A stretch of 64,000 nt of DNA, from the NCBI RefSeq assembly GCF_021389955.1, contig NZ_CP089980.1, positions 4,521,001-4,585,000 of the forward strand. Reading direction: 5' to 3'. The translations under genes and the position numbers were made by a program. The first letter of the stretch is position 1, and every line of letters starts with the position of its first letter. Below are positions 20,578 to 51,680 of the stretch, in pieces. The DNA is from Fulvivirga maritima (GTDB lineage Bacteria > Bacteroidota > Bacteroidia > Cytophagales > Cyclobacteriaceae). The notes under the pieces are model-generated. The model searched no databases. It was given only the letters and a program-made list of their open reading frames with translations, and had not been told where the DNA came from.

Positions 20578-20591
20578 TGTGTGCGCACACA
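20578..20591. promoter_or_regulatory. LacI-type operator, perfect copy, upstream of GH2
   Basis: TGTGTGCGCACACA, a perfect palindrome that extends to 16 bases (20577-20592). It lies 30 bases upstream of the GH2 start. It is identical to the copies at 31203 and 41382. Confidence 0.8.
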
Positions 20592-20732
20592 TTACTCAAA
20601 TGTATAAATAAAATTCTAAAAAACTTTGAGTGCAACTTCATTAATCCTCTAAAGATGAGAAAATATGTGCTGAGCTCAAAGAATGCCCATTTTTTAGCAT
20701 TGATTTTTTTAATAACGCAAAATATTCTTCTG

Positions 20733-20746
20733 TGTTTGCGTACACA
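20733..20746. promoter_or_regulatory. LacI-type operator, variant copy, upstream of GH92
   Basis: TGTTTGCGTACACA, 12 of 14 bases identical to the consensus, 152 bases upstream of the GH92 start. Confidence 0.6.
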
Positions 20747-20898
20747 AAGCTTAAAAATAATGATTTTATCCTTTACTTGTAAAATTATTAGTATAACTTT
20801 AGCGAAACAAATTGCAAGTCATTAGTAAAGTCTACAGCACTTAAAGCTTTTGGAACCTTTACTAAAGCTTCTTTCAAAAACAAGCATGATAAAATAAG

Positions 20899-23196
20899 GT
20901 GAAATTCATGAACAGATTTTTATTACTTGCTGCCGTAGTATTTTTTATAAGCAGCTGTCAGAAAGAAACTCAGGAAACATCAACCAGGGCAGATGAAACC
21001 TCTCAAAACTATACTCAATATGTAGATCAATATATTGGTACAGGTTTTCATGGCCATGTTTTTATGGGGGCTAATGTTCCTTTTGGTGCAGTACAGTTAG
21101 GACCTACAAACCTTACTGAAGGTTGGGATTGGTGCTCTGGCTATCATTATAGCGATACTACAGTAATTGGTTTTGCGCATACTCACCTTAGCGGTACAGG
21201 TATTGGAGATCTTGGTGATATATTATTGATGCCTACCAGTGGAGATGTGAATTTAAATCGAGGATCAATAAAAGATTCTACTCAGGCAGAAGGTTATGTA
21301 GGGTTTTACAATCATGAAGATGAAACGGTAAGGCCTGGATACTACAGCGTTTGGATTGATAAATATGATGTGAAAGCTGAGCTTACTGCTACTACAAGGG
21401 CGGGAATGCAGCATTATAAATATGAGAAAGAAGGTCCTTATAATGTAATTATTGACCTGGAAAGAGGAATTGGCTGGGACAGACCCGAGAAGACTTACAT
21501 AGAGCAAATAGACGATAAAACCATAAAAGGCTACCGTTACTCAAAAGGATGGGCGGTAGACCAGAAAATATATTTTTATATGCAGTTTTCTGCTCCAGTT
21601 AGCAAGATAGTTACAGATAAGGATGGAAATCTGGAGGAAATAAAATCCTTAGAAGGAGAGAGGTTAAAAGCGGCCATTGTTTTTGATGAATTACCAGAAG
21701 GAGAAGTGACCATTAAAACTGGTGTTTCTGCGGTGAGTGTAGAAAATGCTCAGGAAAATTTAGAAGCAGAAATTCCTGCCTGGGATTTCGATCAGGTGGC
21801 CACTGCTGCTGGAGAGGCCTGGAATAAGGAATTGTCTAAAGTAAAAGTGAAGCTGCCTACAGAAGAACAGATGAAGATTTTTTATACTTCATTATATCAT
21901 ACCATGGTGGCGCCATCTATTTTTAGTGATGTAAATGGTGAGTATAGAGGGGCTGATGCTAAAACTTATAAGGATACCACTTTTACCAACTATACCACTT
22001 ACTCTCTTTGGGATACCTATCGTGCAGCGCACCCACTTTTTACGCTTACGCAAAAAGATAAGGTAGAAGATTTTGTTAAAAGCTTCCTGAAAATTTATGA
22101 GCAGCAAGGGAAATTGCCTATCTGGCATTTGGTAGGTAATGAGACAGACTGTATGGTAGGCTACCCGGGCATACCAGTAGTGGCAGATGCTTATTTCAAA
22201 GGCTTTGATGTAGACGGAGAGCTCGCTCTGGAGGCAATGAAAGCTTCTTCTATGCGTGATGATTACGGAATGAAATTCATTAAAGAAAGAGGCTATATAC
22301 CTGCAGATTCTGTGAAAGAATCAGTAGCTAAAGCCCTGGAATATTGCCTGGCAGATAGAAGTATTGCTCAACTTGCCAAGTCTTTAGGTAAGGATGAAGA
22401 TTATGAATATTACAATAAGCGGGCACACGCTTATGAAAGATATTTTGATAAAGAAACCGGTTTTATGCGAGCTGTTATGGCTGATGGAAGCTTCCGCACC
22501 CCTTTCAGTCCATTTAAATCTACCCATATGTGGGGCGATTATACTGAAGGTAACGGATGGCAATATACCTGGTTAGTACCTCATGATGTAGAAGGACTTA
22601 TTGAGTTATTTGGTAGTGAAGTGGCATTTGAAGAAAAGCTGGACAGTCTGTTTATAGTAGAAGGAGACATGGGCGAGGAGGCTTCGCCAGACATATCAGG
22701 CCTGATTGGTCAGTATGCTCATGGAAATGAGCCGAGTCACCACGTAACCTATTTATATAACTATGTAGGTAAACCTTGGAAAACGGCTGATAAGGTGCGC
22801 TACATCATGGATAGTTTATACACTACAAAGCCAGACGGTATCTGTGGTAATGAAGATGTGGGGCAAATGTCTGCCTGGTATGTAATGTCTGCACTTGGCT
22901 TTTATCAGGTGAGTCCTTCTAATGGTCAGCTGGTATTAGGAAGCCCGCTGGTACAAGAAGCTACACTTGATATGGATGGAACAACCTTACATATTGAAGT
23001 AAAAAATAATAGTGCCGAAAATAAATATATACAGAACATATCATTGAACGGCAAAGCATATTTGAACTCATCAATAGCCTACTCAGACCTTGCTCAGGGG
23101 GGTGAATTAGTTATAGAAATGGGTAATACGCCTTCTAAAGAGTGGGGAGTAGCACCAGAGAATAGGCCTAAGTCTATACCTGCTCAGTTCCAATAA
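20899..23196 (+). CDS. GH92 alpha-mannosidase lipoprotein
   Basis: A 765-residue exo-alpha-mannosidase. The N-terminus ends in a lipobox (VVFFISSCQK), so it is membrane-anchored, probably at the cell surface or in the periplasm. GH92 features are clear. YVDQYIGTGFHGHVFMGANV opens the N-terminal domain. GNETDCMVGYPGIPV, AHGNEPSHHVTYLYN and GICGNEDVGQMSAW belong to the catalytic (alpha/alpha)6 domain. GH92 enzymes are calcium-dependent and remove terminal alpha-linked mannose from N-glycans, most often alpha-1,2. The linkage cannot be assigned from sequence alone. The length matches the family. The permease gene follows after 61 bases, and an operator lies upstream. Confidence 0.93.
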   Translation: MKFMNRFLLLAAVVFFISSCQKETQETSTRADETSQNYTQYVDQYIGTGFHGHVFMGANVPFGAVQLGPTNLTEGWDWCSGYHYSDTTVIGFAHTHLSGTGIGDLGDILLMPTSGDVNLNRGSIKDSTQAEGYVGFYNHEDETVRPGYYSVWIDKYDVKAELTATTRAGMQHYKYEKEGPYNVIIDLERGIGWDRPEKTYIEQIDDKTIKGYRYSKGWAVDQKIYFYMQFSAPVSKIVTDKDGNLEEIKSLEGERLKAAIVFDELPEGEVTIKTGVSAVSVENAQENLEAEIPAWDFDQVATAAGEAWNKELSKVKVKLPTEEQMKIFYTSLYHTMVAPSIFSDVNGEYRGADAKTYKDTTFTNYTTYSLWDTYRAAHPLFTLTQKDKVEDFVKSFLKIYEQQGKLPIWHLVGNETDCMVGYPGIPVVADAYFKGFDVDGELALEAMKASSMRDDYGMKFIKERGYIPADSVKESVAKALEYCLADRSIAQLAKSLGKDEDYEYYNKRAHAYERYFDKETGFMRAVMADGSFRTPFSPFKSTHMWGDYTEGNGWQYTWLVPHDVEGLIELFGSEVAFEEKLDSLFIVEGDMGEEASPDISGLIGQYAHGNEPSHHVTYLYNYVGKPWKTADKVRYIMDSLYTTKPDGICGNEDVGQMSAWYVMSALGFYQVSPSNGQLVLGSPLVQEATLDMDGTTLHIEVKNNSAENKYIQNISLNGKAYLNSSIAYSDLAQGGELVIEMGNTPSKEWGVAPENRPKSIPAQFQ

Positions 23197-23257: not shown

Positions 23258-24527
23258 ATGTCAGAAAACAAAGGAAACTTTTTCATGTCCATGTGCATAA
23301 TAGGCACACTGTTTTTTACCATAGGGTTTGCAACATGGGTAAACGGAACTTTAATTCCTTATTTACAAATTGCCTGTCAGCTAGAGACAGAAATTCAATC
23401 GTATTTAGTGGCCACCGCTTTTTATATAGCTTATACTTTAATGGCGCTGCCTTCATCTTATTTACTGGGTAAGGTAGGTTATAAAAAAGGGGATGTCATT
23501 GTCATTAGTAGTGATGGCTATAGGTGCCATTATATTTGTGCCCGCCGCTACGGTACGGAGTTTTGACTTATTTTTGGTAGGCCTATTTATAATAGGGACA
23601 GGACTAGCGTTGCTACAAACAGCGGTAAATCCATATGTTTCTATCATTGGTCCATCAGAGAGTGCTGCTACCAGAATGAGTATTATGGGTATATCTAACA
23701 AAATAGCAGGTATTTTGGCTGGGCTGATTTTTGGATTTATTACTTTAAGTGATGTGGATGCAATAGAAGCATCATTGGCTTCAATGAACGCGGTGGAGCA
23801 GGCTGCTACGCTAGATGAATTAGCTTCAAGAGTGATAGTACCTTATTACATTATTGCCGCAGTGTTAGCTGTGCTTGCAGTAGTGATATGGATGTCTTCA
23901 TTACCTGAAATACAAGGTGAAGAGGACGATGAAGAGGCTGTACCTGATAACGCTGCAGATACTTCTAAAAGCAGTATATTACAATTCCCACATTTATTAT
24001 TAGGCGTGTTAGCACTGTTTTTATATGTAGGAGTGGAGGTAGTAGCCGGTGATACTATTATCAGTTATGGTAAGTCTTTAGATATCTCCCTTTCGGTAGC
24101 AAGATATTTCACGCAAATAACACTAGCTTGTATGCTATTAGGGTATATAGTAGGAATTTTTACTATTCCTAAGTATATTTCTCAAGCAAAAGCTTTGGCT
24201 ATTTGTGCTATTTTAGGTCTGGTATTCTCTGTAGGAGCATTAGTAACTACTGGTTATGCTTCAGTAGCCTGTATTGCTTTGTTAGGATTAGCTAATTCAC
24301 TGATGTGGCCTGCAATATTTCCTTTAGCGATATATAAACTAGGTAAATTCACCGCTCGTGGTTCAGCACTTTTAGTAATGGCCATATCTGGGGGAGCCAT
24401 TTTACCATTAATTTATGGTACTTTTTCTGATATGTTTAATAGTCAGATAGCCTATGTAGTATTATTGCCATGCTATGCTTATATTTGCTTTTTTGCAATT
24501 AAAGGTCATAAAGTAGGATTAAAATAA
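23258..24527 (+). CDS. FucP/NagP-type sugar:H+ symporter, frameshifted
   Basis: A 12-helix MFS permease of about 422 residues once one G is removed from the GGGG run at 23489-23492. That joins GKVGYKKG to MSLSLVVMAIGAII. The pattern TLIPYLQIACQL followed by the LQTAVNPYVSIIGP segment is typical of the fucose/glucose/N-acetylglucosamine permease family. Among Bacteroidota such permeases import monosaccharides released in the periplasm. Its place between the GH92 gene and a ROK sugar kinase suggests mannose or GlcNAc as substrate, and fucose is possible because two fucosidases belong to the locus. It is probably cotranscribed with GH92. Confidence 0.83.
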
Positions 24528-24564: not shown

Positions 24565-24578
24565 TGTGTGCGCGCACA
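24565..24578 (+). promoter_or_regulatory. LacI-type operator in the ROK kinase promoter
   Basis: TGTGTGCGCGCACA matches the consensus at 13 of 14 bases. It lies between TTTG (24558-24561) and TAATTTG (24583-24589), which are spaced 21 bases apart like Bacteroidota -33 and -7 elements. A bound repressor would cover the promoter. The kinase start is 106 bases downstream. Confidence 0.7.
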
Positions 24579-24684
24579 AAAATAATTTGCTTTTTAGGTA
24601 ATTGAAATATATCTTCAAAACACAATTTAATGAGGATGGAACAGTGCCTGAGGTTTTTGAATTTTACTGGTAAAAAATAAAAAT

Positions 24685-25575
24685 ATGTCAAATAAGACAC
24701 TTGTTGGAGTTGATATAGGGGGGACTAGCATCAATATTGGTTTGGTAGAAGCCGGACAATTAATTAAAAAATTAAAGGTTGCCACACCAGCACAAGAAGC
24801 TAAGGAAGTGGTGATTAAGGCTCTGCTCGATGGTATTGAGAACATAAAAGCCGGACATGAGGTGCAAGGGATAGGAATAGGAGTTCCGGGCTTATTAGAC
24901 GCTAAACAGGGCATAATATATGATTTAGTAAATATTCCTTCTTGGGATGAAGTGCACCTGGCTAAGGAAGTGAGTGAGCACTTTGGCATAGAGGTATTTC
25001 TGGCTAATGATGCTAATTGCTTTGTGGTAGGTGAGAAGATTTATGGCAAAGGCAATAAATATAATAGTATAGCAGGAGTAACATTAGGAACAGGCCTGGG
25101 TATGGGTTTTGTATTTAATGAACAACTGCATAGCGGCATCATGTCAGCGGCGGGTGAAGTAGGAGCAATTCCTTATATGCTGCATAACTATGAGCACTAC
25201 TGTAGTGGCAAGTTCTTCACAAGAGAATTTGGTCTTGATGGAAATGTGGTGTTTCAAAAAGCTTTAGATGGACATGCCGTTTCTAAGGGTATTTTTAAGC
25301 AATTTGGACTACATCTGGGGCATTTATTTAAGTATTTACTCCATATAGTAGCACCAGAGGCTATCTTCATAGGAGGCTCTATTAAAGATGCCTATCCGTT
25401 TTTCTCTGATGCCATGTGGGAGGTACTTCATACTTTCCCATACAAGAGGGTGGTGGATAATCTGATAGTAGAAAAATCTGAAATGAACGATGTCGCCATT
25501 ATGGGAGCAGCAGCCGTTTGTGCAATGAACCTGAAACTGAAAGAGAAATCTGATGTCCCTGGTATAGTGCTTTAA
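24685..25575 (+). CDS. ROK-family sugar kinase
   Basis: A 296-residue cytosolic kinase. VGVDIGGTSINIG (residues 8-20) is the ATP phosphate-binding loop and GIGVPGLLD the second conserved segment. NDANCFVVGE carries the catalytic Asp, and GVTLGTGLGMG binds the phosphate. The usual ROK zinc motif CxCGxxGC is absent. Instead the region after GEVGAIPY reads HNYEHYCSGKFF, a form seen in some Bacteroidota ROK proteins. The enzyme would phosphorylate an imported hexose such as GlcNAc, mannose or glucose. GlcNAc is attractive because a NagB fusion protein is part of the same regulon, but the substrate is inferred. It has its own operator-controlled promoter. Confidence 0.85.
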   Translation: MSNKTLVGVDIGGTSINIGLVEAGQLIKKLKVATPAQEAKEVVIKALLDGIENIKAGHEVQGIGIGVPGLLDAKQGIIYDLVNIPSWDEVHLAKEVSEHFGIEVFLANDANCFVVGEKIYGKGNKYNSIAGVTLGTGLGMGFVFNEQLHSGIMSAAGEVGAIPYMLHNYEHYCSGKFFTREFGLDGNVVFQKALDGHAVSKGIFKQFGLHLGHLFKYLLHIVAPEAIFIGGSIKDAYPFFSDAMWEVLHTFPYKRVVDNLIVEKSEMNDVAIMGAAAVCAMNLKLKEKSDVPGIVL

Positions 25576-25845: not shown

Positions 25846-26699
25846 ATGAATTTAATCATGAGGCTTTTTAAATCACTTACTTCCCTTCATTCCTTGCGCA
25901 TTACCAACAGAAGGATTTATGATATGAAATGTAGGTTAATGTGGATGTATTATTTATTGTTTCCTCCAAAAAGTATTATAGATAAGCGTAAACTCATCTC
26001 GGGTACTATTCCTGTAATCATCAATAACTTTAACCGCTATGCCTCCCTGAAAATTTTGAAAAATGGTTTATGACTTTAAAGAGTCACAAGACTTCCATTA
26101 TTATAATCGATAATGCTTCCACTTTGCCGTCACTACTGACCTACTATAAGAAGATTTCTTCTCAAAAGAATATTCAGCTCATTAGACTTAAGAAGAATAG
26201 CGGACTTAACTGGATTCTTCCGGTGAGCATGGCCTTACGGCGTTTTGAAAAGTACATTGTGTCTGACGCTGATTTAATTCCATATGACAGTACTCCTGAT
26301 GATATTATTGATAAGATGGAAAATACTTTGAATACCTATAGTCATATTAATCACGTGGGTGTATCTCTGGAGATAAATGACCTTCCCAATCATTATCCTT
26401 TAAAGAATAAGGTTATTGACTGGGAAGGGAAGTTTTGGGCAAATAAAATAACACCTGAACATTATATAGCTCCTGTAGATACCACATTTGGCATGTATAG
26501 AAAAAACTCATTAGTTACAGCCCTTACGCCTTCATTACGGTTAGACAGGCCCTACACATTTAAGCATGTTGATTGGTATATCAATCCAGAAAAATTAACA
26601 CAGGAGGAAAATTTGATTGTTGAAACCAGCTCAGATTGTTCTACCTGGAACAGTATGTTAAAAGAGTATATTAAAAAGGAAGAGGAGCCTATTTCTTAA
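25846..26699 (+). CDS. Glycosyltransferase-like protein, frameshifted
   Basis: About 284 residues if one missing base is restored near 26068-26073, where GGTTTATGAC carries the first frame into a stop. The joined reading is PVIINNFNRYASLKIL, a short stretch, then TSIIIIDNAS and YIVSDADLIPYD. This follows the nucleotide-diphospho-sugar pattern of family 2-like glycosyltransferases, including a DAD metal-binding motif. The two frames also overlap as ATGA, so two coupled genes are possible, but the protein pattern favours one. An ATG at 25858 is an alternative start. The acceptor and donor sugars are unknown. It ends in an 11-base overlap with the convergent deacetylase gene and lacks an operator, so it seems unrelated to the surrounding regulon. 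Confidence 0.6.
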
Positions 26700-27522
26700 G
26701 CGGCTTTTTAAAGATATATCCTGATTGGAGCATATATTCTATGGTATGGTAGAATAGTTCTCCATTGTTTTCATAGTCATGAGTTAATAATATGTTGCTG
26801 GAGAGGTTAGATGTTTCTTTTTCTTTAAACGACGGAGTATATCCGGCATTTGGTCTTTTAGTTTCTAACAGAGCATAGGTGTTTTGTAAGGCGTTATTCA
26901 GGTCTTCATTATTCATGAGTTTATAATCCTCCAGGTCAAGGGTCCACATCCAGTCTCGGTCTCTTTTAAATTTTTCATAAAATGGATGATCTATATTAAT
27001 TGAAGGTGGAGTATACCCTAAGCTTTTTAGGTGTTCTTGTACCTTATTGGCTCGAACCATTCCTTTTTCTTTTTTATGGCTATAGAAGGCGAGTGGCTTG
27101 AGCATTTTGTAGGCTAAGCGCTTCTTTCTTCCTAATTTAATTTCGTATATCTGATCAAAAGGGTAGAGGTTAAATCCAAACTTATAATCCCCTTTGTCAC
27201 CAAAAGGAAATCGGAATACTTTAGGATAGCTTTTAATGCCGCAGCTTTGATACAGATCTGCAATAAGTTTATCAGCCTTGTTAATGTCTTCTAAACAGGC
27301 TTTGAGAGATAAGGAAGAGAAATGCTTGTGACTGTATGAATGGTTGCCAATGTGATATCCGTGTTCTATGGCATACTTAAGTTCTTCGGAAGCTCCAGGT
27401 ATTTGCTGCCCAATACAGAAAAATAAGGCAGGAATTTTATTCTTCATCAGAAATTGAACCTTGTTCTTAAAATCTTTGGAAGGGCTATCATCAATAGTTA
27501 AATATACAGATTGGAAGCTCAT
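26689..27522 (-). CDS. NodB-type polysaccharide deacetylase
   Basis: A 277-residue carbohydrate esterase family 4-like protein. TIDDSPS (residues 9-15) provides the catalytic base Asp11 and the metal-binding Asp12. HIGNHSYSHKHFS contributes the zinc ligands His61 and His65, and RFPFGDKG is the third conserved motif. No clear signal peptide is seen, so it may be cytosolic or exported by another route. The probable reaction is removal of N- or O-acetyl groups from a polysaccharide. The 3' end overlaps the convergent glycosyltransferase gene by 11 bases. No link to the LacI regulon is visible. Confidence 0.82.
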   Translation of the reverse strand: MSFQSVYLTIDDSPSKDFKNKVQFLMKNKIPALFFCIGQQIPGASEELKYAIEHGYHIGNHSYSHKHFSSLSLKACLEDINKADKLIADLYQSCGIKSYPKVFRFPFGDKGDYKFGFNLYPFDQIYEIKLGRKKRLAYKMLKPLAFYSHKKEKGMVRANKVQEHLKSLGYTPPSINIDHPFYEKFKRDRDWMWTLDLEDYKLMNNEDLNNALQNTYALLETKRPNAGYTPSFKEKETSNLSSNILLTHDYENNGELFYHTIEYMLQSGYIFKKPLKK

Positions 27523-27636: not shown

Positions 27637-28002
27637 TCAATATGCCCAACAATCTTTAGTCATATTACCATTGGTAAGGTCTAGCTTAAACCACCAACCA
27701 GATCGGCCAGATTTCTCGGCAAATTCGTCTTTACCAATGCACGCCACTCTTAGATCGGAGGCAGAGAGATACCAAAACCGGTAATGCGCCGGTGGGGGAA
27801 CAGAAAACAGAAGCTCACCACGTAATGAATACCCTAGGAGCTTTTCTTCTTCAGGGGTGTAAGTGGTTATTAAAATGATTCCTTTCTCTTTATTGATGAG
27901 AGCATCTGCTACATCATTTACTTTTATGTGGTAGGCGTTGCCTTCAATTTCAAAACTGATTGAGCCTGATTCTTCATTGTATTCTAATTCATTACTTTTC
28001 AT
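27637..28002 (-). CDS. Hypothetical protein (121 aa)
   Basis: I do not recognise a family. It has 121 residues, no signal peptide and no membrane segment. It looks like a small beta-rich cytosolic protein (ISFEIEGNAYHIKV, GIILITTYTPEEEKL, HYRFWYLSASDLRVACIG). The gene ends 42 bases after the ParB-like gene on the same strand, so the two are probably cotranscribed and may work together. Confidence 0.55.
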   Translation of the reverse strand: MKSNELEYNEESGSISFEIEGNAYHIKVNDVADALINKEKGIILITTYTPEEEKLLGYSLRGELLFSVPPPAHYRFWYLSASDLRVACIGKDEFAEKSGRSGWWFKLDLTNGNMTKDCWAY

Positions 28003-31201: not shown

Positions 31202-31202
31202 G

Positions 31203-39903: not shown

Positions 39904-39961
39904 CATCAGACCTAAGGATATGTATATAGATAATTTTAGAATATTTATTTTTAAAAAAAAT

Positions 39962-41360: not shown

Positions 41361-41374
41361 TGTGTCCGCAAACA
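41361..41374. promoter_or_regulatory. LacI-type operator, distal copy, second susC
   Basis: TGTGTCCGCAAACA matches the consensus at 12 of 14 bases. Its centre is 21 bases, about two helical turns, from that of the next operator. Confidence 0.6.
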
Positions 41375-41381: not shown

Positions 41382-41395
41382 TGTGTGCGCACACA
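41382..41395. promoter_or_regulatory. LacI-type operator, perfect copy, second susC
   Basis: TGTGTGCGCACACA, a perfect palindrome, 11 bases upstream of the -7 element at 41407-41414. Confidence 0.8.
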
Positions 41396-41597: not shown

Positions 41598-44500
41598 ATG
41601 AAGCAAGTTTACAGCAATCCACCCAACTCGTATACTGTTTTGGGTTTAACAAAAACTGCTTTAAAGGAAACTTTTAAGGCAGAGAAATTGATCATGCAGT
41701 TTCTTTTAATGGCGCTTTTGGTTGTGTTTAATCAGGCACAAGCCCAAAGTCCAATAAGTGGAACTGTATTGGAAGAAACTACTGGTGAGCCTGTTCCTGG
41801 GGTTACTGTAGTAGTAAAGAATACATCTAGGGGAACAATTACAGATGGTGAAGGTCACTTTACCGTTGAGGCATCACCTGATGATATTTTAGTTTTTTCT
41901 TTTGTAGGTTTTAAAAGAAGAGAAATCAGTGTAGGAAATCAAACTAATTTTTCAGTTTCTCTTGAAGAAGATATTACTGAATTATCAGAAATAGTAGTAG
42001 TGGGATATGGAGAACAAAAGAAACAAAATTTAACAGGTGCAGTATCAGCCGTAGAATCTGAAACTTTAACAACCAGACCTGTAGGTCAGGTATCGGCTGC
42101 ATTACAAGGAGTGGCACCTGGAGTTACTGTTACACAAAGTAGTGGACAGCCTGGTGCTGATCAAGGAAGTATCCGTATCAGAGGTATTGGTACATTTAAT
42201 GACAATGCTCCTTTAGTTTTGGTTGATGGTGTTCAGTATAACATCAATGATATAGACCCTAATGATATTGAGTCAATGTCAGTACTTAAAGATGCGGCGG
42301 CAGCATCTATCTATGGAGTTAGAGCTGCAAATGGTGTAATCCTTATTAAAACTAAGAGGGGTGATAAAGGAGCTCCTAAAGTGTCTTACAACAATTATTT
42401 TGGATGGCAAAGACCTACTACTTTACCTGATTTTGTGGGAGCCCAGACCTATATGCAGCTAAGAAATTTAACAAGTACTAACACAGGTGGTGGCACCGTA
42501 TTTTCACAAGCGCAAATTGATGCTTACAATAACCCTGATCGTAATACATTTGAGTACCCAGACGTAAATTGGTTTGATAAAGTGTTAAATGCAAGTGGTT
42601 TTCAGCAGAGCCATAGCTTAGGTATTGCGGGTGGTGCAGATAATATTAAGTACCGCTTTTCAACTAATTATTTTGATCAAAAAGGGCTTGTTGAAAAGAC
42701 TGAATTTGAGCGTATTACAGTAAGATTAAATACTGATATTAAGCTTTCTGAGAGGTTAAATTTTAATGCAGATATTTCTGCTAAAATTTCTAATACAAAA
42801 GAACCTCAGGGAGGAACAAGTCAACAGTTCCAGACTGCTGATGCCACTAACCCATTGAATGGGATTAAAAATGAAGCCGGAGAATGGTTAAGAGCAAGAA
42901 ATGAAGATAATCCTTTAAGATTACAAGAAGAGGGGGGGCTTTATGAGGATAAGGAAAACCTTTATATGGGTAACTTCCGTGCAGATTATGAGATAATTGA
43001 TGGATTAACATTATCAGGGTTAGCCTCTGTCAACAATAGCTCTGAGTATTATAGTCAGCGTGATTTACTGTTTGAGTATGGAGATGTTGAACAGGGAGCC
43101 AATTCTGTTGCTAAAACTTCTGTTGATTTTTGGTTTACTAACATTCAAGGACTATTAAACTATCAAAAATCTTTTGGAGAACATTCTATAAAGGTGCTTG
43201 GAGGTATTTCAAGACTTACGAGGAGGTCTGATCAATTATATGCAGATAGACAAAATTTACCTGCACCTTATTTAGATCAATTAGATGCCGGAGAGCAAGA
43301 AAATCAACATATAAGTGGAAATGCTTATAAATATGCTTTGCAGTCTTATTTTGGAAGAATTAATTACTCTTTTAAAGATAGGTATCTATTAGAGGCCAAT
43401 ATAAGAAGAGATGGTTCTTCTCGTTTTCCTGATGGTCAAAAATGGGGGACATTTCCTTCGTTTTCTGCAGGTTGGATAATATCTAGAGAGGCGTTTATGG
43501 ATGATGTGACAATTTTTGATGAGTTAAAATTAAGAGGGTCATGGGGTAAATTAGGAAATGATAATACTTTAGATGGTAATGGAAGTGCAGATTATTATCC
43601 ATACCAATCAACACTTGAAGTTTCAAGTTATCCTTTTAATGGATCAATGGTTCAAACTTTACAATTAAGTTCTTATCCAAATAATTCTTTAACGTGGGAG
43701 ACTACAAAAATGACCGATTTCGGACTTGATCTTGTTCTTTTGTCAGGTAAGATAGATGCTACTTTTGATTATTATATTAAGGAAACTAATGATATTCTAA
43801 TGCCATACTTGCAACCAAGTTCTGTTGGTCTGTCATACCCTTTTCAAAATGTGGGATCTATGAAAAACAGAGGTTGGGAGCTAGCAGTTAATTATCATGG
43901 TACAGTAGGAGAAGATTTTTCTTTCACTATTGGAGGTAATATTGCTGATGTAAAGAATGAAGTAACTGATCTTAATGGAACAGATCAATTAGAGGATAGT
44001 AATGGTATTTTTACCGCCTTAAAAGTAGGTGATCCTATTAATGCATATTATGGATATGAAGTGGATGGAATGTTCCAAACAGAGGAACAGGTGAACAATT
44101 ATGCGAGTGTGGCTGGTGCAGCCCCCGGAGATTTGATTTATAGAGATGTAGATGGTAATGATGAAATCAATGCCGATGATAGAGTTTATCTAGGTAGTAA
44201 TATTCCAAGGTATACTTACGGTATTAACTTAGGCGCTGAGTATAAAAACTTTTCTTTGTCTGCATTTTTTCAAGGTGTAGGTGATGTTGATGTGCATACT
44301 TTAAATATTTTGCAAGCACCTATAGGTCCGGATGGAAACTTCAGAAGTCTTCATGAAGACAGTTGGACTCCAGAAAATACTAATGCAGCTTATCCACGAT
44401 TAGGAGCTAATGAGCAAAATAATCAAGCTTCTTCTTATTGGGTAAAGAGCGGGGCATATCTTAGACTTAAAAATGTACGATTGAATTACAGGCTTCCTTC

Positions 44501-44669
44501 TGAGTGGTTAGAAAGTGTAAACATTTCAAATTGCAGTTTATTTGTTAGTGGTCAAAATTTATTAACCTTTTCTGGTTTGGAAGACGGAATAGATCCAGAA
44601 ACGCCATCCACTAGTAGATACTATCCACAAGTTAAAATTTATACGTTTGGAGTAAATGTTAACTTTTAA
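41598..44669 (+). CDS. susC: SusC-family TonB-dependent outer-membrane transporter
   Basis: A 1023-residue intact transporter. The signal peptide (FLLMALLVVFNQAQA) follows an N-terminal extension. Residues about 50-125 are a carboxypeptidase-regulatory-like domain (ISGTVLEETTGEPVPGVTVV), then a TonB-box region (EIVVVGYGEQ) and the plug (GSIRIRGIGTFND, PLVLVDGVQY, VLKDAAAASIYGVRAANGV). The barrel includes FEANIRRDGSSRF-like YLLEANIRRDGSSRF and ends in KIYTFGVNVNF. It is of the standard SusC length. The susD partner begins 11 bases downstream. With the first pair it gives the locus two separate import systems, perhaps for different N-glycan fragments. Confidence 0.94.
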   Translation: MKQVYSNPPNSYTVLGLTKTALKETFKAEKLIMQFLLMALLVVFNQAQAQSPISGTVLEETTGEPVPGVTVVVKNTSRGTITDGEGHFTVEASPDDILVFSFVGFKRREISVGNQTNFSVSLEEDITELSEIVVVGYGEQKKQNLTGAVSAVESETLTTRPVGQVSAALQGVAPGVTVTQSSGQPGADQGSIRIRGIGTFNDNAPLVLVDGVQYNINDIDPNDIESMSVLKDAAAASIYGVRAANGVILIKTKRGDKGAPKVSYNNYFGWQRPTTLPDFVGAQTYMQLRNLTSTNTGGGTVFSQAQIDAYNNPDRNTFEYPDVNWFDKVLNASGFQQSHSLGIAGGADNIKYRFSTNYFDQKGLVEKTEFERITVRLNTDIKLSERLNFNADISAKISNTKEPQGGTSQQFQTADATNPLNGIKNEAGEWLRARNEDNPLRLQEEGGLYEDKENLYMGNFRADYEIIDGLTLSGLASVNNSSEYYSQRDLLFEYGDVEQGANSVAKTSVDFWFTNIQGLLNYQKSFGEHSIKVLGGISRLTRRSDQLYADRQNLPAPYLDQLDAGEQENQHISGNAYKYALQSYFGRINYSFKDRYLLEANIRRDGSSRFPDGQKWGTFPSFSAGWIISREAFMDDVTIFDELKLRGSWGKLGNDNTLDGNGSADYYPYQSTLEVSSYPFNGSMVQTLQLSSYPNNSLTWETTKMTDFGLDLVLLSGKIDATFDYYIKETNDILMPYLQPSSVGLSYPFQNVGSMKNRGWELAVNYHGTVGEDFSFTIGGNIADVKNEVTDLNGTDQLEDSNGIFTALKVGDPINAYYGYEVDGMFQTEEQVNNYASVAGAAPGDLIYRDVDGNDEINADDRVYLGSNIPRYTYGINLGAEYKNFSLSAFFQGVGDVDVHTLNILQAPIGPDGNFRSLHEDSWTPENTNAAYPRLGANEQNNQASSYWVKSGAYLRLKNVRLNYRLPSEWLESVNISNCSLFVSGQNLLTFSGLEDGIDPETPSTSRYYPQVKIYTFGVNVNF

Positions 44670-44680
44670 TTGACAGAAAT

Positions 44681-46258
44681 ATGAGAAATAGATATATAAT
44701 ATTAATTTTTTTGGGTGTAGCTGTGTTTTTCAGCTCCTGCGATACAGACGATTTTCTAGATCAGCAACCAATGGATGAGGTGTCGGGCGAGGCATATTGG
44801 CAAACAATTGATCAAGCTCAGTCAGCTTTAGATAATGGATATAGATATCTAAGAGATGATTATTATAGAATGGTGATATCTGCCACAACTGATGATAGTT
44901 ATTCTTGGAGTGATTGGCCTACTGATGCTAAGTTTGTAGGTACTGGGACTGCTACTACTACTGCTGGTTATTTTTCCCATTATTGGTCCACGAATTTTCG
45001 AATTGTTAGTTCATCAAATTTTTTATTAGATAATATTGATAATATTGAAGGAGATGAAGCTAGTCTAAATGAAATTCGAGGACAAGCACTGACTCTTAGA
45101 GCCTATGCTTATCAACAATTAATTGCTCTTTTTGGTGATGTGCCTAGAGTAGAGCATGTGCCTTCTCCTGAGGAGCTTTATCCTACTCTTACTAGTAGAG
45201 AGGAAATAGCTAATTGGATAGTTGATGATTTAACGCAAGCTGCGGAGTATCTTCCCGTTTCTTATGAAGGTGAATCAGGTAGAGTAACTAGAGGTGTGGC
45301 ACTTGCTATTAAAGCTCGTGTTTTGCTATATGAAGGAGATTGGCAAAGAGCAGCTGAGGCTGCGCAAGAAGTTATGGATCTAGGGGCTTACTCAATAGAT
45401 GATGATTATTTATCTTTATTTGATGGAACAAACAAAGGAAGTACTGAGATTATTTTTGCAGCTCAATATTCAACTAATAGTAAAAATGCGATTGCTACTT
45501 GGGTAGGAGGTCCTGCCGTAGGAGGATGGAGTCAAATAGTACCGCTCCAGAGTCTAATTGATGCATATGAAATGACGGATGGGCAGACTATTGATGAATC
45601 CCCCTTGTACGACTCTTCTAATCCTTTTGACAATAGAGATCCCAGGTTATCACTTACGGTTATTCTTCCTGGAGGGGTAGTTAATGGTAGTGTTGTTGAT
45701 GTAACGGATACCACCAGTGGTAATATAAATGTGATAGGTGCAAATAATGCATCTCCTACTGGATATTATTATAGAAAGTATGTGGCAGACGATATATCTG
45801 GAGATTGGGATCAGAGATCTTATAATGATGAAATATTGATTAGATATGCTGAAGTATTACTTACTTATGCTGAAGCTAAAATTGAAGCAGGTCAGATTGA
45901 TGGTACAGTATTGGACGCAATTAATCAGGTGAGACAAAGACAAGGTGTTGAAATGCCAGCAGTAACTACTACATCAGCTGCAGAATTAAGGGAAATTGTA
46001 AGAAGAGAACGCAGAGTGGAATTCGCTTTAGAAGAGCATAGGCTATTCGATATTCGCAGATGGAGAATTGCAGAAGATGTGATGCCAGGAAATGTGTATG
46101 GGATTCTTAATGATTTTGATGAGAGGAGAGGTGATTATGGTCAGCATATTTTGATTGAAGAACGTTATTTCGATCCTTCTAAAGATTATTTATGGCCTAT
46201 TCCTCAGCAGGAAATGGACTTAAATGAGAATTTACAACCAACAGGTGGTTGGTATTAA
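44681..46258 (+). CDS. susD: SusD/RagB-family glycan-binding lipoprotein
   Basis: A 525-residue lipoprotein with lipobox VFFSSCDT and the typical SusD start DDFLDQQPMDEVSGEAYW. The TPR-like part contains LRAYAYQQLIALFGDVPRV. The C-terminal part contains LIRYAEVLLTYAEAKIEAGQ and RRERRVEFALEEHRLFDIRRW, a strong RagB/SusD signature. It ends YLWPIPQQEMDLNENL, the usual SusD C-terminus. It is the binding partner of the preceding SusC. A terminator follows. Confidence 0.95.
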   Translation: MRNRYIILIFLGVAVFFSSCDTDDFLDQQPMDEVSGEAYWQTIDQAQSALDNGYRYLRDDYYRMVISATTDDSYSWSDWPTDAKFVGTGTATTTAGYFSHYWSTNFRIVSSSNFLLDNIDNIEGDEASLNEIRGQALTLRAYAYQQLIALFGDVPRVEHVPSPEELYPTLTSREEIANWIVDDLTQAAEYLPVSYEGESGRVTRGVALAIKARVLLYEGDWQRAAEAAQEVMDLGAYSIDDDYLSLFDGTNKGSTEIIFAAQYSTNSKNAIATWVGGPAVGGWSQIVPLQSLIDAYEMTDGQTIDESPLYDSSNPFDNRDPRLSLTVILPGGVVNGSVVDVTDTTSGNINVIGANNASPTGYYYRKYVADDISGDWDQRSYNDEILIRYAEVLLTYAEAKIEAGQIDGTVLDAINQVRQRQGVEMPAVTTTSAAELREIVRRERRVEFALEEHRLFDIRRWRIAEDVMPGNVYGILNDFDERRGDYGQHILIEERYFDPSKDYLWPIPQQEMDLNENLQPTGGWY

Positions 46259-46796: not shown

Positions 46797-48659
46797 CTAA
46801 TCTACTTTAAGATCAGTTAATATAGGTTCTTTTATTCCTGAAAGAGCTTTTTGTTCTGTGTCGTTAAGTTGTTCAAAAACAATTACTTTATTTTCTCCTT
46901 CATTTAACCAGCATCCTGGTACATATAATGTTTGCTGAGGGCCTACTTTCCAGTATCTGCCTAGGTTATGGCCATTAACAAATACTATACCTTTACCCCA
47001 ATTTGTCATATCAAGGAAAGTGTCACCTGCTGTTTTTATGTTAAAAGTAGCTTCATAGATTACAGGTAAACCAGTTTTGGCTTCCTTCAGATTATCTAGT
47101 GAAGGTACTTCATCAAATGGAGCCTTATACATTTCCCAGTTACCAGTAATTTCATAATCATTAATAGTTACAGGGCTTATTATACCTTTTTTATTATGTA
47201 CAATTTCGGCTCCGTAATTAATTCTCCCCATGTTTTCAACCAGGATTTCAAGAGTACCGTTGAAAGGCATGGATATGTTCATTTCATAGTTATTAAATAC
47301 TCTATTTAATACGCCTTGCTTCTTGCCGTTAACGTATACCGTAGCAAAATCTCTAAGTCCTTCTATTTTCAACTTTCCGTTAATAGGCTGAGTAAATCTC
47401 TTTCTATATAAAACATAACCAGATTCTTGCATCAACTCTTCGTATGTGAGCGGAGTTTCTGATTTAACCGGCTTTTGTTTTTTGATATAACTGAGGGCAT
47501 CAGCTGATTTTGAAATTTCTATAGATGGAATAGATATAACGGGTATCTGCTCAGGAATTTCAGGAACATCATATGAAACATACTCCTTCATCACTTCTCT
47601 GATGGCTTTGTATTTTGGTGTGGCCCATCCTGCTTCGCTAATAGGGGCATCATAGTCATAGCTGGTAAGATCAGGCTGAATATCATGCTCATCATTATAG
47701 TTAGCCCCGCTGGTGAAAGCGAAATTTGTGCCGCCATGAACCATATAGAAGTTAAAGTCAACGCCATTCTCTAAATAGGTTTTGGTCTGATTGGTGAGAC
47801 TTTCTGACCCTATAGTAATGAAGTCTTCGGCCCAGTGATCTAACCACCCTGAATAAAATTCAGCTACCATATAAGGACCTTCATTATTATGATATTTATT
47901 TACCGCCTTTTTAAGGTTGTTAACATTGCCTTCTCCATTGGCAGTAGGTAATACTCCTTCAATCGCTCCTCCTTCGAATAACCAGCTGCCGTCAGAAGTA
48001 AAAAATGGCCCTTCAAAGCCTACTTCCTGAAGCATTTCATAGATCTTGGTTCTGTAAGCCAGGTGATCCTCGGCACTGATATCTTCTCTCTGAGATACAT
48101 AAGAACCGAATTCATTTTCTACCTGGGTCATAATAATATTACCCCCTCTGCTCACTTGTAAATCAGCTACCTGCTCAGCCAGCTTGCCTAAGTATACCTT
48201 ACAAGAGTCTAAGAATGCCTGATTGTTCGCTCTAATTTCAAGGTCAGGATTGTTTTGTAGCCAAAACGGATATCCTCCAAATTCCCATTCAGCACATACA
48301 TATGGTCCTGGTCTCAAAATCACATAAAGCCCTTCTTCCTGAGCGGTTTTTATGTATTCTGCTAAGTTCTTATTACCAGTACTAAAATCCCATTTTCCAG
48401 GTTCTACTTCATGGTAGTTCCAAAAAACATAGGTTGCCACGGTATTAAGACCCATGGCTTTAATCATTCTTAATCTGTGTCTCCAATATTCTTTAGGAAT
48501 ACGGCTATAGTGCATTTCGCCACTATAGATATGGATAGGCTTTTTATTAACCTGAAAGCTTCCATCTTTAATTCTGAAAGCTTTTTTTCCTTGTGCATTG
48601 GTCTGGGTTATGGCCAGACCAATGAGCATTAAGAAAATAAGCGTTTTTAATTTCTTCAT
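46797..48659 (-). CDS. GH35 beta-galactosidase
   Basis: A 620-residue exported enzyme with a signal peptide (LIFLMLIGLAITQTNA). The barrel shows the GH35 pattern: GEMHYSRIPKEYW, TYVFWNYHE, LRPGPYVCAEWEFGG, VENEFGSY with the acid/base Glu183, and MVAEFYSGW with the nucleophile Glu267. C-terminal beta-sandwich domains follow (VYVNGKKQGVL, VFVNGHNLGRYW). It would remove terminal beta-galactose from antennae of complex N-glycans. It is the third gene of the GH29-GH29-GH35 operon, 56 bases after the second fucosidase. A terminator follows. Confidence 0.94.
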   Translation of the reverse strand: MKKLKTLIFLMLIGLAITQTNAQGKKAFRIKDGSFQVNKKPIHIYSGEMHYSRIPKEYWRHRLRMIKAMGLNTVATYVFWNYHEVEPGKWDFSTGNKNLAEYIKTAQEEGLYVILRPGPYVCAEWEFGGYPFWLQNNPDLEIRANNQAFLDSCKVYLGKLAEQVADLQVSRGGNIIMTQVENEFGSYVSQREDISAEDHLAYRTKIYEMLQEVGFEGPFFTSDGSWLFEGGAIEGVLPTANGEGNVNNLKKAVNKYHNNEGPYMVAEFYSGWLDHWAEDFITIGSESLTNQTKTYLENGVDFNFYMVHGGTNFAFTSGANYNDEHDIQPDLTSYDYDAPISEAGWATPKYKAIREVMKEYVSYDVPEIPEQIPVISIPSIEISKSADALSYIKKQKPVKSETPLTYEELMQESGYVLYRKRFTQPINGKLKIEGLRDFATVYVNGKKQGVLNRVFNNYEMNISMPFNGTLEILVENMGRINYGAEIVHNKKGIISPVTINDYEITGNWEMYKAPFDEVPSLDNLKEAKTGLPVIYEATFNIKTAGDTFLDMTNWGKGIVFVNGHNLGRYWKVGPQQTLYVPGCWLNEGENKVIVFEQLNDTEQKALSGIKEPILTDLKVD

Positions 48660-48715
48660 ATATAACTAGTTTGAGATAGAGTAAATTGATAACCAATTAC
48701 ATCCATCACTTTGAC

Positions 48716-50173
48716 TTAGTAAATTTCAACATTATTTATAACGGGACAGGCTTTACTATCTGTTATATTAATTTTGATTTTCTCTGTATCCACAGGCTCT
48801 TCAAGTCTTAAAATCCTTTTGTAACCGATGGTAGTAGCTTCAGCAACTTTCTCCCACTTGCCATTTAACCAAGCTTCTACATTGAATTCTTTTACACGTT
48901 GTCCTAATGGAATGTACTCTTGAATAGTAATGTATTTTACTTGTTGTGACTCTCCTAGATCAATTTCTAAAGAACCTGTCTTAACGGCATCATCGGTAGC
49001 CCAATAGGTGTCATAATTGTCATCTAGGGTTTGGTTGGCAGAGTAAGTATCATCTTCTCCTCGAACTGTAGATGCTGAGATAGAAGCGCCTTCTGTAAGG
49101 TCTTTAGCAAATTCTTTCTTAAGAAGTGCATCCCATCCTTTTAGTGAAGCAATGTCATTTTCATGAAATTGACCTCTTTTATCTGGAGGAACATTCAGTA
49201 ATAGGGTAGAACCACGACCCACTGAAGTAAGGTAGATATCTAATAATTGCTCTGGCGTTTTTACAAGAGAATCTTCTTTGGCGTGATAAAACCAACCTGG
49301 TCTGATAGAAGTGTTGGCTTCTAAAGGCACCCAGTTTTTACCGTCTTCAGATCCTTTATTCAAAAGGTCTTGTATTCCAGCCATACCGGCATAAATGGAA
49401 TCTGAAGATATAGTGTTCCAGTTAGTAAATCCAGCTCTTGCCAGCTCATTTCCTCCCCATCTTAAATCTGGGCCACCATCACTAAAGAACAGTACCTGAG
49501 GTTGTATTTCACGAACCATTTCCAGCGTTTTAGGCCAGTGATAGTATGTTTTACGGTCTATTTTTCTTTCTTCATTAGCTCCACCATAGTATCCGTCACC
49601 ACCGTTTGCACCATCAAACCACATTTCGAATACATCTCCGTATGAAGTGAATAGTTCTTTTAATTGATTTCTGTAGTAAGTGACATAAGTAGAATCTCCA
49701 TAATCTGCCCGGTTACGATCCCACGGAGAAACATAAACCCCAAACTTAAGTCCGTACTTTTTACAAGCGTCAGATACTTCTCTTACTATATCTCCTTCAC
49801 CGTTTTTATAGGGGCTGTTAGCAATGTCATGCTCTGTGTATTCTGAAGGCCATAAGCAGAAACCATCATGATGTTTACAAGTAAGAATTACGCCTTTGAA
49901 TCCTGTTTCTTTAAGCACTTTCACCCATTGATCAGCATCTAGGTCTGTAGGGTTGAATAGCTCAGGAGACTCATCTCCATAACCCCATTCTTTATCAGTA
50001 AAGGTGTTTATGGTAAAATGAATAAAAGCATTTTTTTCCATTTTGTGCCATGCCATCTGTTCAGCATCAGGCACTGGACCTACAGCTGCGGGCGGCGGAG
50101 CATCTTTTTTGCTTTTGCAGGCTACTATGGATAATGCTAATAGAGCTGCAACTAAAATCTTATTTCTTCTCAT
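48716..50173 (-). CDS. GH29 alpha-L-fucosidase lipoprotein with C-terminal discoidin-like domain
   Basis: A 485-residue enzyme from ATG 50173. The extended frame to 50203 would need a TTG start and overlaps the preceding gene. The lipobox is LSIVACKS (Cys19). The catalytic barrel contains FIHFTINTFTD, LTCKHHDGFCLWPS and EMWFDGANGG, with Asp187 as the expected nucleophile. This WPSEYT/MWFDGANG pattern is closer to the alpha-1,3/1,4-specific subgroup (GH29-B) than to the relaxed subgroup. The last 110 residues (DTYWATDD, LEIDLGESQQVKYITIQEY) look like an F5/8 type C (CBM32-like) module. It starts 7 bases after the first fucosidase. It would remove fucose from antennae. Confidence 0.9.
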   Translation of the reverse strand: MRRNKILVAALLALSIVACKSKKDAPPPAAVGPVPDAEQMAWHKMEKNAFIHFTINTFTDKEWGYGDESPELFNPTDLDADQWVKVLKETGFKGVILTCKHHDGFCLWPSEYTEHDIANSPYKNGEGDIVREVSDACKKYGLKFGVYVSPWDRNRADYGDSTYVTYYRNQLKELFTSYGDVFEMWFDGANGGDGYYGGANEERKIDRKTYYHWPKTLEMVREIQPQVLFFSDGGPDLRWGGNELARAGFTNWNTISSDSIYAGMAGIQDLLNKGSEDGKNWVPLEANTSIRPGWFYHAKEDSLVKTPEQLLDIYLTSVGRGSTLLLNVPPDKRGQFHENDIASLKGWDALLKKEFAKDLTEGASISASTVRGEDDTYSANQTLDDNYDTYWATDDAVKTGSLEIDLGESQQVKYITIQEYIPLGQRVKEFNVEAWLNGKWEKVAEATTIGYKRILRLEEPVDTEKIKINITDSKACPVINNVEIY

Positions 50174-50180
50174 GCGATAA

Positions 50181-51590
50181 TTAGTTTTCTGTATTAAATT
50201 CAAAGGCTAAAGCAGGGTAGGTGTCATTCTGACTGATGAATTTTTCAGGAACAGTAATTTCTACTTTTCCCTGGTTAAGTTTCCAACTCACCTTTTTGCC
50301 ATTGCTAAGCATTTTTATTTTGCTGCCTTTTTTTGGAGTATTTCCTTCCCAGGTTACTGTGGTAGGAACCTTTTCTCCTTCAGGTATATTTACTATGGCG
50401 TATTTTTTACCTTCTTTATCTTCAGTGAAAAACACATTCTCGTAATTATAGGTAGGTGTTATTCTTGTGTTATAAATTGCCTTTCCGTTTTGATCTAACC
50501 AGTCACCAATTTTTGCCATTCGCTTCATGTCTTCTTCTCTCAACGTTCCATCTGGCTTAGGCCCAATTCCTAGTAATAGGCTACCACCTTTGGCTACAAT
50601 TTCTACTAATGAATGAATGATTTTTGTAGATGATTTTAACTGATCATTAGGTACATAACCCCAATTGTTAGCCAGAGGAATGCAGCTTTCCCATGGGTTA
50701 CTGATCTGATGGTCAGGAATGCTTCTTTCTGGTGTCTGATAGTTTTCATATGGACCATGAACTGTTCTGTCAACCACTAGCATTCCAGGCTGATTTTCTC
50801 TTGCCATAGCTGCTATCTTGGGTAAATCTATACTTTGCTCTCCATTTCTTACCATTCTACCAGGTCTTACCCAGCCACCATCTAACCACAATATATCTAT
50901 GCTGCCATAGTCAGAAGTAAGTTCTTCTACTTGATTATAAGCAAACTGCTTGTATTTATTCCAACGCTCAGGATGAGCAGCAAGGTTATAGTTCACATTA
51001 CGATCCCAAGAACCATATTTATCCCACCAGAAGTACTGTGAGTGCCAATCAGGCTTGGAGAAATATGCTCCAATCATCATGCCTTCGTTACGAAAAGCTT
51101 CAAACACATATTTAGCTACGTTAGCTTTGGGGTGGTCTGCAAAAGGACCATTAGTGATTTTGAAATCGGTTTGCTGAGTATCAAACATATTGAAGCCATC
51201 ATGGTGCTTGGTGGTGAATACTACGTATTTCATACCAGCATCTTTAGCGGCTTCTGCCCATTTTTCAGGAGCAAAGTTTACAGGGTTAAACTCTTTGCTA
51301 AGTCCCCAATACCATTCTTTAAACTCACAGTAGCTCATAGAATCTTTACGATTGATCCAGTCTTCTGAGGTGAGCTCCCATGACTCTACCATGCCACCTT
51401 GTGCATATAAACCCCAGTGAATGATCATGCCGAACTTCTGATCTTGCCATTTATCCAGCTTGGCAAGTACCTTAGGATCTTCAGGCCAGTCGTATTCTGT
51501 AGACATACCATGTAAATTATTTTCCTGTGCGTTTACCCATACGGGAGCGCTCAGAAGAAAGAGAAGCATTAACGCTATATTCTTGCTCAT
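50181..51590 (-). CDS. GH29 alpha-L-fucosidase
   Basis: A 469-residue exported enzyme with a signal peptide (IALMLLFLLSAPVWVNA). The barrel contains FGMIIHWGLYAQGG, FTTKHHDGFNMF and DILWLDGGWV, with Asp237 the expected nucleophile. The C-terminal part is the small beta-sandwich seen in the family. Its sequence differs clearly from the second fucosidase, so the pair may divide the work, for example core alpha-1,6 versus antennary fucose. That split is inference. It is the first gene of the minus-strand operon, 76 bases from an operator. Confidence 0.92.
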   Translation of the reverse strand: MSKNIALMLLFLLSAPVWVNAQENNLHGMSTEYDWPEDPKVLAKLDKWQDQKFGMIIHWGLYAQGGMVESWELTSEDWINRKDSMSYCEFKEWYWGLSKEFNPVNFAPEKWAEAAKDAGMKYVVFTTKHHDGFNMFDTQQTDFKITNGPFADHPKANVAKYVFEAFRNEGMMIGAYFSKPDWHSQYFWWDKYGSWDRNVNYNLAAHPERWNKYKQFAYNQVEELTSDYGSIDILWLDGGWVRPGRMVRNGEQSIDLPKIAAMARENQPGMLVVDRTVHGPYENYQTPERSIPDHQISNPWESCIPLANNWGYVPNDQLKSSTKIIHSLVEIVAKGGSLLLGIGPKPDGTLREEDMKRMAKIGDWLDQNGKAIYNTRITPTYNYENVFFTEDKEGKKYAIVNIPEGEKVPTTVTWEGNTPKKGSKIKMLSNGKKVSWKLNQGKVEITVPEKFISQNDTYPALAFEFNTEN

Positions 51591-51666
51591 AAATATTACC
51601 TTTAGTTTGAATGTATGATTGGACTCTTACTTACAATCTTAAATAAAAATCTTTAATTTTGGAAAA

Positions 51667-51680
51667 TGTGTGCGCAAACA
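51667..51680. promoter_or_regulatory. LacI-type operator between the GH29 operon and GH20
   Basis: TGTGTGCGCAAACA matches at 13 of 14 bases. TAAATTG at 51685-51691, 4 bases away, resembles the -7 element towards GH20, with the same spacing as at the ROK kinase. It lies 76 bases from the GH29 start and 97 from the GH20 start, so it can control both. Confidence 0.7.

Follow-up and report, generated by a model that had tools for sequence, protein, structure and literature searches.

Which protein acts on a 14-bp palindrome that recurs throughout a glycan-utilization locus, and how far does its regulon extend? This question is raised by a window of 64,000 nt from the genome of Fulvivirga maritima (genome G000; contig NZ_CP089980.1, positions 4521001-4585000), the window being the whole stretch of DNA that was analysed. 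It carries nine such palindromes, three of them exact copies of TGTGTGCGCACACA, among genes for glycoside hydrolases, SusC/SusD pairs, a nagB-type protein and a LacI-family regulator. A sequence-only reading had proposed that they mark a single LacI regulon over an N-glycan locus. Our comparisons indicate that the palindromes are very likely operators of the LacI protein encoded at 33476-34544. We further consider it likely that this protein is an autoregulated NagR-like repressor of amino-sugar catabolism, which here would also control the N-glycan locus.

All nine palindromes, including the three exact copies, were found where the sequence-only reading had placed them, and a tenth, weaker site (O6) was recognized. 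They are given below in window coordinates as O1-O10; G006 and G004 are congeners with a close LacI orthologue (94% and 75%, respectively), and G021 belongs to another genus.

20578-20591: O1, exact TGTGTGCGCACACA, at predicted +1 to +14 of the GH2 promoter.
20733-20746: O2, TGTTTGCGTACACA, for GH92-MFS and possibly GH2 too; same 14-mer in G006.
24565-24578: O3, TGTGTGCGCGCACA, 106 bp 5' of a ROK-family gene; exact consensus at the G006 counterpart.
31203-31216: O4, exact TGTGTGCGCACACA, at predicted -27 to -14 of the nagB promoter; kept in G006, G004 and G021.
31234-31247: O5, CGTGTGCGCGCACA, 31 bp from O4; the 31-bp pair is kept in G006, G004 and G021.
34656-34669: O6, TGTTTTCGCTAACA, weak (10.5 bits), 21 bp from O7.
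34677-34690: O7, TGTGTGCGGACACA, between the divergent lacI and susC1 genes, overlapping both predicted core promoters.
41361-41374: O8, TGTGTCCGCAAACA, 21 bp 5' of O9.
41382-41395: O9, exact TGTGTGCGCACACA, at predicted -37 to -24 of the susC2 promoter.
51667-51680: O10, TGTGTGCGCAAACA, between the divergent GH29 and GH20 genes, at predicted +1 to +14 of the GH20 promoter; same 14-mer in G006.

A search of the window for TGTGTGCGCACACA with up to three mismatches returned 15 matches, corresponding to the nine places and to six 2-bp out-of-register readings of the same palindromes, for a shuffle expectation of 0.89 and a maximum of 4 in 100 shuffles. With a matrix built from the nine sites, so that the scores of G000 sites hold by construction, 9 matches of at least 15 bits were obtained between 20001 and 52000, whereas 30 shuffles gave 0.03 on average. 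The weaker site at 34656 had been overlooked; its counterpart in G006, TGTTTTCGCAAACA, reaches a matrix score of 15.3 bits. A genome-wide scan, run as a mismatch search on the single contig of 6,392,613 bases, placed all three exact copies and all three one-mismatch places inside the locus. The two-mismatch places comprise the other three noted sites in the window and five separate places outside it (2366849, 2454497, 2835305, 4416955 and 6182174), a count that is about that expected by chance because the reversed pattern also gives 5 matches genome-wide at up to two mismatches. Since every exact and one-mismatch place falls in the locus and the outside count is near the control, we regard the clustering of the sites as real.

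The sites had also been described as all intergenic and within about 310 bp of a gene start. The first description needs qualifying at 20578, which overlaps codons 1-5 of the longest GH2 open reading frame (ORF), and at 31203, where the overlap is confined to a 5' extension of the NagB ORF that starts with TTG, upstream of the ATG at 31157 with which G006 aligns. A signal-peptide-like GH2 start is found at a later ATG, near 20547, and transcription is predicted to start at the first ATG; O1 therefore probably lies within the GH2 leader, with GH2 starting later than its longest ORF. With this later start, the distance claim is respected at every site, none being more than 223 bp from the nearest plausible target start.

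The motif follows one LacI subfamily across relatives. Among the best 80 of at least 586 confirmed LacI loci, 57, distributed across Bacteroidota, have a match of at least 12 bits in the 500 bp that precede the LacI match, compared with 0 of 80 for the reversed pattern, and a looser palindrome rule gave 55 versus 2 in the same loci; these counts are not independent, as the set includes close species (many Flavobacterium and Hymenobacter, and two near-identical metagenome-assembled genomes). Twenty control LacI loci were hand-picked from weaker matches, and among the 18 in which the LacI gene could be located (26-38% identity) a single one has a match of at least 12 bits within 600 bp. Within the genus, matches exceed those of the reversed control in G006 (15 versus 4) and G004 (10 versus 4), whereas the 12 other congeners searched are at control level, with 28 matches versus 29 in total. 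G015, a genome without a close LacI relative, has 2 matches versus 3. At the other extreme, G042 carries 17 matches with up to two mismatches and none with the reversed pattern (L186, L202-L215). In flavobacterial relatives, TGTGCTCGAACACA or a near form lies upstream of lacI, mostly doubled at 21-23 bp (L128, L129, L135, L138, L142, L143, L147, L148, L150-L152, L157, L158, L160-L163 and L168), and MFS and nagB genes often point away from lacI in flavobacterial loci. Locus L162, from Flavobacterium johnsoniae CI04, is one in which the lacI relative has MFS and nagB genes nearby. The sites upstream of the relatives, their scarcity at control genes and the congener pattern support in silico the proposal that the encoded LacI protein binds the palindromes.

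The genes that accompany the motif elsewhere bear on the breadth of the regulon. nagB is present within 35 of the 80 LacI loci and in none of the 20 controls (p 1.1e-4), and neither nagB nor an MFS gene was found in any of the 20 control loci. A site of at least 11 bits occurs within 500 bp upstream of nagB at 10 of 17 loci from LacI-bearing genomes (LacI match of at least 150 bits) and at 0 of 13 others (p 6.5e-4), in a scan that covered 30 of 38 nagB matches, the other 8 all being in the LacI-bearing genomes G009 and G013. In G021, two exact sites 31 bp apart separate divergent nagB and nagP-like MFS genes, and this pair is on a different contig than lacI. In G042, sites of at least 20 bits precede nagB and two GH20-like genes. 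The best out-of-locus site of G000 (2366849) is about 65 bp upstream of an unlinked GH18 gene, and the distance is the same in G006; the out-of-locus places 2454497 and 2835305 are inside ORFs. Because nagB, MFS, GH20-like and GH18 genes carry sites in relatives or in G000, the regulon looks like one of amino-sugar use that was widened in this lineage to the N-glycan locus. Two further sites are recorded here as side observations. In G042, L202 has an exact site between a BadF-type kinase gene (weakly NagK-like; 369-1232) and a membrane dipeptidase gene (1775-3013); wall-derived N-acetylglucosamine (GlcNAc) is hinted at as part of the regulon in the genus of G042. In G000, the two-mismatch site at 4416955 (L011), about 90 bp upstream of a gene for a BT_1020-like beta-propeller protein, is either an extra target or a chance match.

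The locus itself has the following content, as seen in a domain scan of 23 of its 26 ORFs of at least 120 aa between 17895 and 54834 (24627-24989, 27637-28002 and 53754-54164 were left out).

17895-20592, minus strand: GH2 with mannosidase/glucosaminidase-type domains, frameshift-split, likely start near 20547.
20908-23196, plus strand: GH92, from a domain match and comparison with G006.
23258-24527, plus strand: MFS sugar transporter, frameshift-split.
24685-25575, plus strand: ROK-family sugar kinase-type gene, from a domain match.
29241-31157, minus strand: nagB-type, glucosamine-6-phosphate deaminase-like protein with a PIG-L domain.
31309-33465, minus strand: GH3, about 10 bp behind lacI.
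33476-34544, minus strand: lacI, with the helix-turn-helix (HTH) half at 33942-34544, the C-terminal half at 33476-33877 and a frameshift near 33942-33960.
34923-40885, plus strand: SusC-type receptor (two ORFs), SusD-type lipoprotein and fasciclin-domain protein.
41598-46258, plus strand: second SusC/SusD pair.
46797-51590, minus strand: GH35, GH29 and GH29 in a run.
51778-54834, plus strand: GH20 hexosaminidase-type and asparaginase-2-family genes.

The apparent units provided with sites, grouped from gene spacing, are GH2; GH92-MFS; ROK; nagB; lacI-GH3; susC1-susD-fasciclin; susC2-susD; GH29-GH29-GH35; and GH20-asparaginase. GH3 and lacI would probably share one transcript, and their arrangement is the same in G006 and G004. 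No site was found at the three ORFs located between ROK and nagB (26070-26699; 26689-27522, a polysaccharide deacetylase; and 28045-29007). The last of these encodes a 320-aa protein with no Pfam or NCBIfam match and 75% identity to its G006 copy. The nagB assignment is based on a match to NF002557 of 1057 bits for a cut-off of 384. A protein combining NagB-like and PIG-L domains, the latter of the GlcNAc-phosphatidylinositol de-N-acetylase type, is present in 23 of 30 relatives searched, and it might couple amino-sugar deacetylation and deamination. The transporter resembles NagP most, at 316 bits where that family requires 625, and the only cut-off that it passes is the one for the gluP subfamily. 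GH3 has its best NCBIfam matches with xylosidase-type rather than hexosaminidase families, all below cut-off. An IS1595-type transposase gene lies just past the glycan locus, at 59905-60816.

By Pfam and NCBIfam, SusC/D pairs occur together with GH92, mannosidase-type GH2, GH20, two GH29, GH35 and asparaginase-2 genes, as is typical of an N-glycan polysaccharide utilization locus (PUL), and the gene set looks like one for complex N-glycan breakdown. The scan of 23 ORFs revealed no GH18 or GH85 domain of endo-acting type, so that glycan release is not explained by the locus alone; the same ORFs include no hybrid two-component or sigma/anti-sigma gene, the kind of regulator usual for PULs of Bacteroides. 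The enzymes would suit a dedicated N-glycan switch, with a regulon limited to this locus and an N-glycan fragment as effector, and so would the presence in the locus of all six genome places with at most one mismatch. We consider such a switch unlikely in view of the unlinked GH18 site, which is kept in G006, of the two exact sites at the nagB/MFS pair of G021 on a contig other than that of lacI, and of the frequency of nagB as a neighbour of lacI across the phylum. For the same reasons the original proposal appears too narrow: an N-glycan-type locus with sites was borne out, a single regulon limited to N-glycans was not.

The arrangement of the sites is regular. Among 42 site pairs 8-60 bp apart, a count that includes nine extra loci, some of them possibly kin of the named 80, the spacing is 21-22 bp in 23 and 31-33 bp in 16, and the reversed control gave no pair. 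A survey of LacI-family regulons, in the part of that work consulted, finds that the spacing of tandem sites peaks at 22 and 32 bp and reads this as cooperative dimers (PMC4052901). Promoter positions were predicted from TAnnTTTG, the -7 element of Bacteroidetes, which has its first T at -12 in the corresponding part of its description (PMC6847099). This element is present beside 6 of 9 site-gene combinations, which count two operators for two genes each, and at 5.6% of random intergenic positions (p 2e-6); over five genomes, it accompanies 15 of 31 combinations. It starts 13 bp before O1, as it also does in G006 and at the matching site of G004, where the gene was taken as GH2 by position, and its offset at nagB (+15) is identical in G000, G006 and G004. 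Operators are accordingly predicted at -37/-24 (susC1, susC2), -27/-14 (nagB, lacI) and +1/+14 (GH2, GH20). An even, CG-centred palindrome, O7, is thus located at the predicted promoter of lacI itself.

The recognition helix varies together with the operator. In the helix SxGTVDR, residue x is V or K; the base beside the central CG is G in 44 of 60 half-sites of V proteins and T in 82 of 86 half-sites of K proteins. Counted by row, T is the most frequent base in 23 of the 24 K rows that have a site, and the exceptions to G in the 23 V rows are two T and one A. A quick tree from which the HTH was left out implies about two origins of K, one in Flavobacteriia and one in a clade of Dyadobacter and Adhaeribacter, each accompanied mostly by T. 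The correspondence is suggestive of a coupling between residue x and the base next to the central CG.

A number of observations weigh against the reading of these palindromes as operators of a NagR-like LacI. No match at 12 bits is found upstream of lacI in 23 of the 80 relatives, and a 19.4-bit site exists in the control locus L258, farther off from the LacI gene. Outside the genus, the genome-wide excess over the reversed pattern is slight or nil in several LacI-bearing genomes (G029, 7 versus 7; G038, 8 versus 6; G039, 6 versus 5; G058, 4 versus 2; G021, 15 versus 10; G057, 14 versus 6). Among the 35 named nagB genes, the motif is within 400 bp directly upstream in only 11 (0 for the reversed pattern); many of the remaining loci are flavobacterial, with nagB behind the MFS gene. 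No nagB site was found in the LacI-bearing genomes G057 and G039 or at the two scanned copies of G009. Several of the G042 sites fall within ORFs or precede genes that are not evidently connected with amino sugars. The GH18 site is present only in G000 and G006, both out-of-locus matches of G004 being inside ORFs, and GH18 was on these grounds rejected as a general regulon member. TAnnTTTG was not found at the operators of ROK, GH92 and GH29 in G000. The correlation between V/K and G/T, with its roughly two origins of K, too few for a sign test, cannot reach significance, and a statistical proof of coupling was abandoned. Finally, the LacI relative of G042 is preceded by only a weak match of 8.1 bits, and the lacI ORF is frameshifted in the G000 record, a point that the sequence-only reading does not mention.

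The last two points could be turned in favour of another binder: a different LacI-family protein (G000 has six such genes, five besides this one) or a regulator from outside the locus might occupy the sites, and perhaps another regulator uses the motif in G042, where it is so abundant. This alternative also covers the possibility that LacI is an activator. We judge it very unlikely: the loci of about 3 kb around the other five LacI genes (L017-L021) contain no match of at least 9 bits, the presence of sites tracks this LacI subfamily and, against an activator, wherever the element was found, the operators reach into the predicted -33/-7 region or cover +1 instead of lying upstream.

The protein itself has the domains of a LacI-family transcription factor, with an HTH domain (PF00356) at 61.6 bits for a cut-off of 27 and a periplasmic-binding-protein-like effector domain (PF13407) on both ORF pieces. 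Its frame is open in the eight best-matching relatives (356-419 codons). The frameshift is likely to be a sequencing indel error, because 7 of the 26 G006 ORFs with matches in the window (ORFs of at least 200 aa, more than 60% identity) are read in more than one frame, with 8 frame changes, within and beyond the glycan locus. The frame-split genes are at 11891-14508, 17895-20592, 23258-24527, 33476-34544, 34923-38313, 54852-56261 and 56451-59686; susC1 is also spread over two ORFs, and some of the split genes lie outside the glycan locus, as neighbours of a gene of CheA type and of one for a PAS/GAF protein. That lacI is a pseudogene is the less likely reading, since multi-frame genes inside and outside the locus fit indel errors better than the decay of one locus. 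A plasmid database search with the lacI region gave no match. The fold modelled for the G006 orthologue (mean predicted local distance difference test score, pLDDT, 87.6) resembles LacI, CcpA, PurR and sugar-binding proteins, and a fold search with this model gave no clear hint of a ligand. The closest solved ligand-binding domain, 3gbv, a putative LacI regulator from Bacteroides fragilis (E 1.4e-67, TM-score 0.92 by target length), is 29% identical and is listed with neither function nor ligand.

The idea that the palindromes are structural DNA (Z-DNA-prone alternating purine-pyrimidine tracts, cruciforms or terminator stems) starts from the perfect alternation of TGTGTGCGCACACA and can be practically discarded, as the variants at 20733, 34677, 41361 and 51667 keep TGT..CG..ACA and break the alternation, the flavobacterial TGTGCTCGAACACA sites are not alternating, and the sites stand at promoter-like sequences with helical pair spacings, mostly of 21-22 or 31-33 bp.

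We thus return to an autoregulated, NagR-like LacI repressor, for which the following mechanism can be proposed. A LacI dimer would bind each 14-bp CG-centred site, and two sites that share a face of the DNA at a spacing of 21 or 31 bp would be bound by a pair of dimers, possibly with cooperativity. Bound LacI would block RNA polymerase at core promoters, including its own; the role of repressor, and of autorepressor, is suggested because the predicted operator positions would all block the polymerase. An amino-sugar catabolite would then release LacI from its sites. The effector is most likely a GlcNAc-type compound, that is GlcNAc or a close derivative (GlcNAc-6-phosphate, glucosamine-6-phosphate or chitobiose), by analogy with the LacI-family GlcNAc repressor NagR of Shewanella, the DNA binding of which is abolished by GlcNAc in the portion of the report consulted (PMC3223726). 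LacI would in this way control a core of nagB and MFS genes, the locus for utilization of N-glycans, which contain GlcNAc, and the unlinked GH18 gene. A more general proposal, which we hold to be an even call, is that the SxGTVDR subfamily, for which we came across no name, is the Bacteroidota-wide counterpart of NagR/NagC. It would be a cytoplasmic sensor of amino-sugar monomers that uses paired operators two or three turns apart and in which residue x sets the base beside CG. In some lineages it would have captured SusC/D N-glycan loci, to be induced by released GlcNAc and not by a periplasmic oligosaccharide.

In most accounts, the glycan loci of Bacteroidota are driven by periplasmic oligosaccharide sensors of the hybrid two-component system (HTCS) type or by sigma/anti-sigma pairs. 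If our reading is true, a cytoplasmic LacI repressor links an N-glycan locus, nagB and a chitinase-family gene through one operator, making monomer-sensing logic testable, and the operator rule provides a means to predict regulons in many unstudied Bacteroidota. In the literature searched, which did not extend to subscription papers, we found neither the 14-mer nor a paper combining 'LacI family', Bacteroidota, GlcNAc, repressor and PUL.

Several known systems can be compared with this one. The LacI-family regulators KdgR, UxaR, UxuR and UxmR of Bacteroides are likewise comparative-genomics predictions for sugar catabolism but, in the parts of those studies consulted, control uronate pathways; there, HTCS regulators are given charge of the alpha-mannan (N-glycan) loci, and a ROK protein that of sialic acid/GlcNAc (PMC3878776, PMC4052901). 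Even CG-centred palindromes, frequent autoregulation and tandem sites are shared with the general rules for LacI operators, as far as the consulted part of the survey describes them, whereas the conserved 14-bp core and spacings mostly of 21 and 31 bp are particular to the present case (PMC4052901). The chitin locus of Flavobacterium johnsoniae similarly brings together nagB, GH18, GH20 and SusC/D genes; it differs by its two-component system, which is required for growth on chitin, and no LacI protein is named in the section of its description consulted (PMC5127042). NagR of Shewanella is, again in the portion consulted, a LacI-family regulator of nagP, nagB-type and hexosaminidase/chitin-related genes (PMC3223726). 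A NagR-type regulon would have sites upstream of nagB and of a GlcNAc transporter gene; here they are found upstream of nagB, and the MFS transporter, most like NagP, may or may not carry GlcNAc. Compared by description and not by sequence, the two systems differ in phylum and in the presence here of sites also before SusC/D systems and N-glycan hydrolases. The mechanism itself would be classical, and the system a further case of a well-known type of switch.

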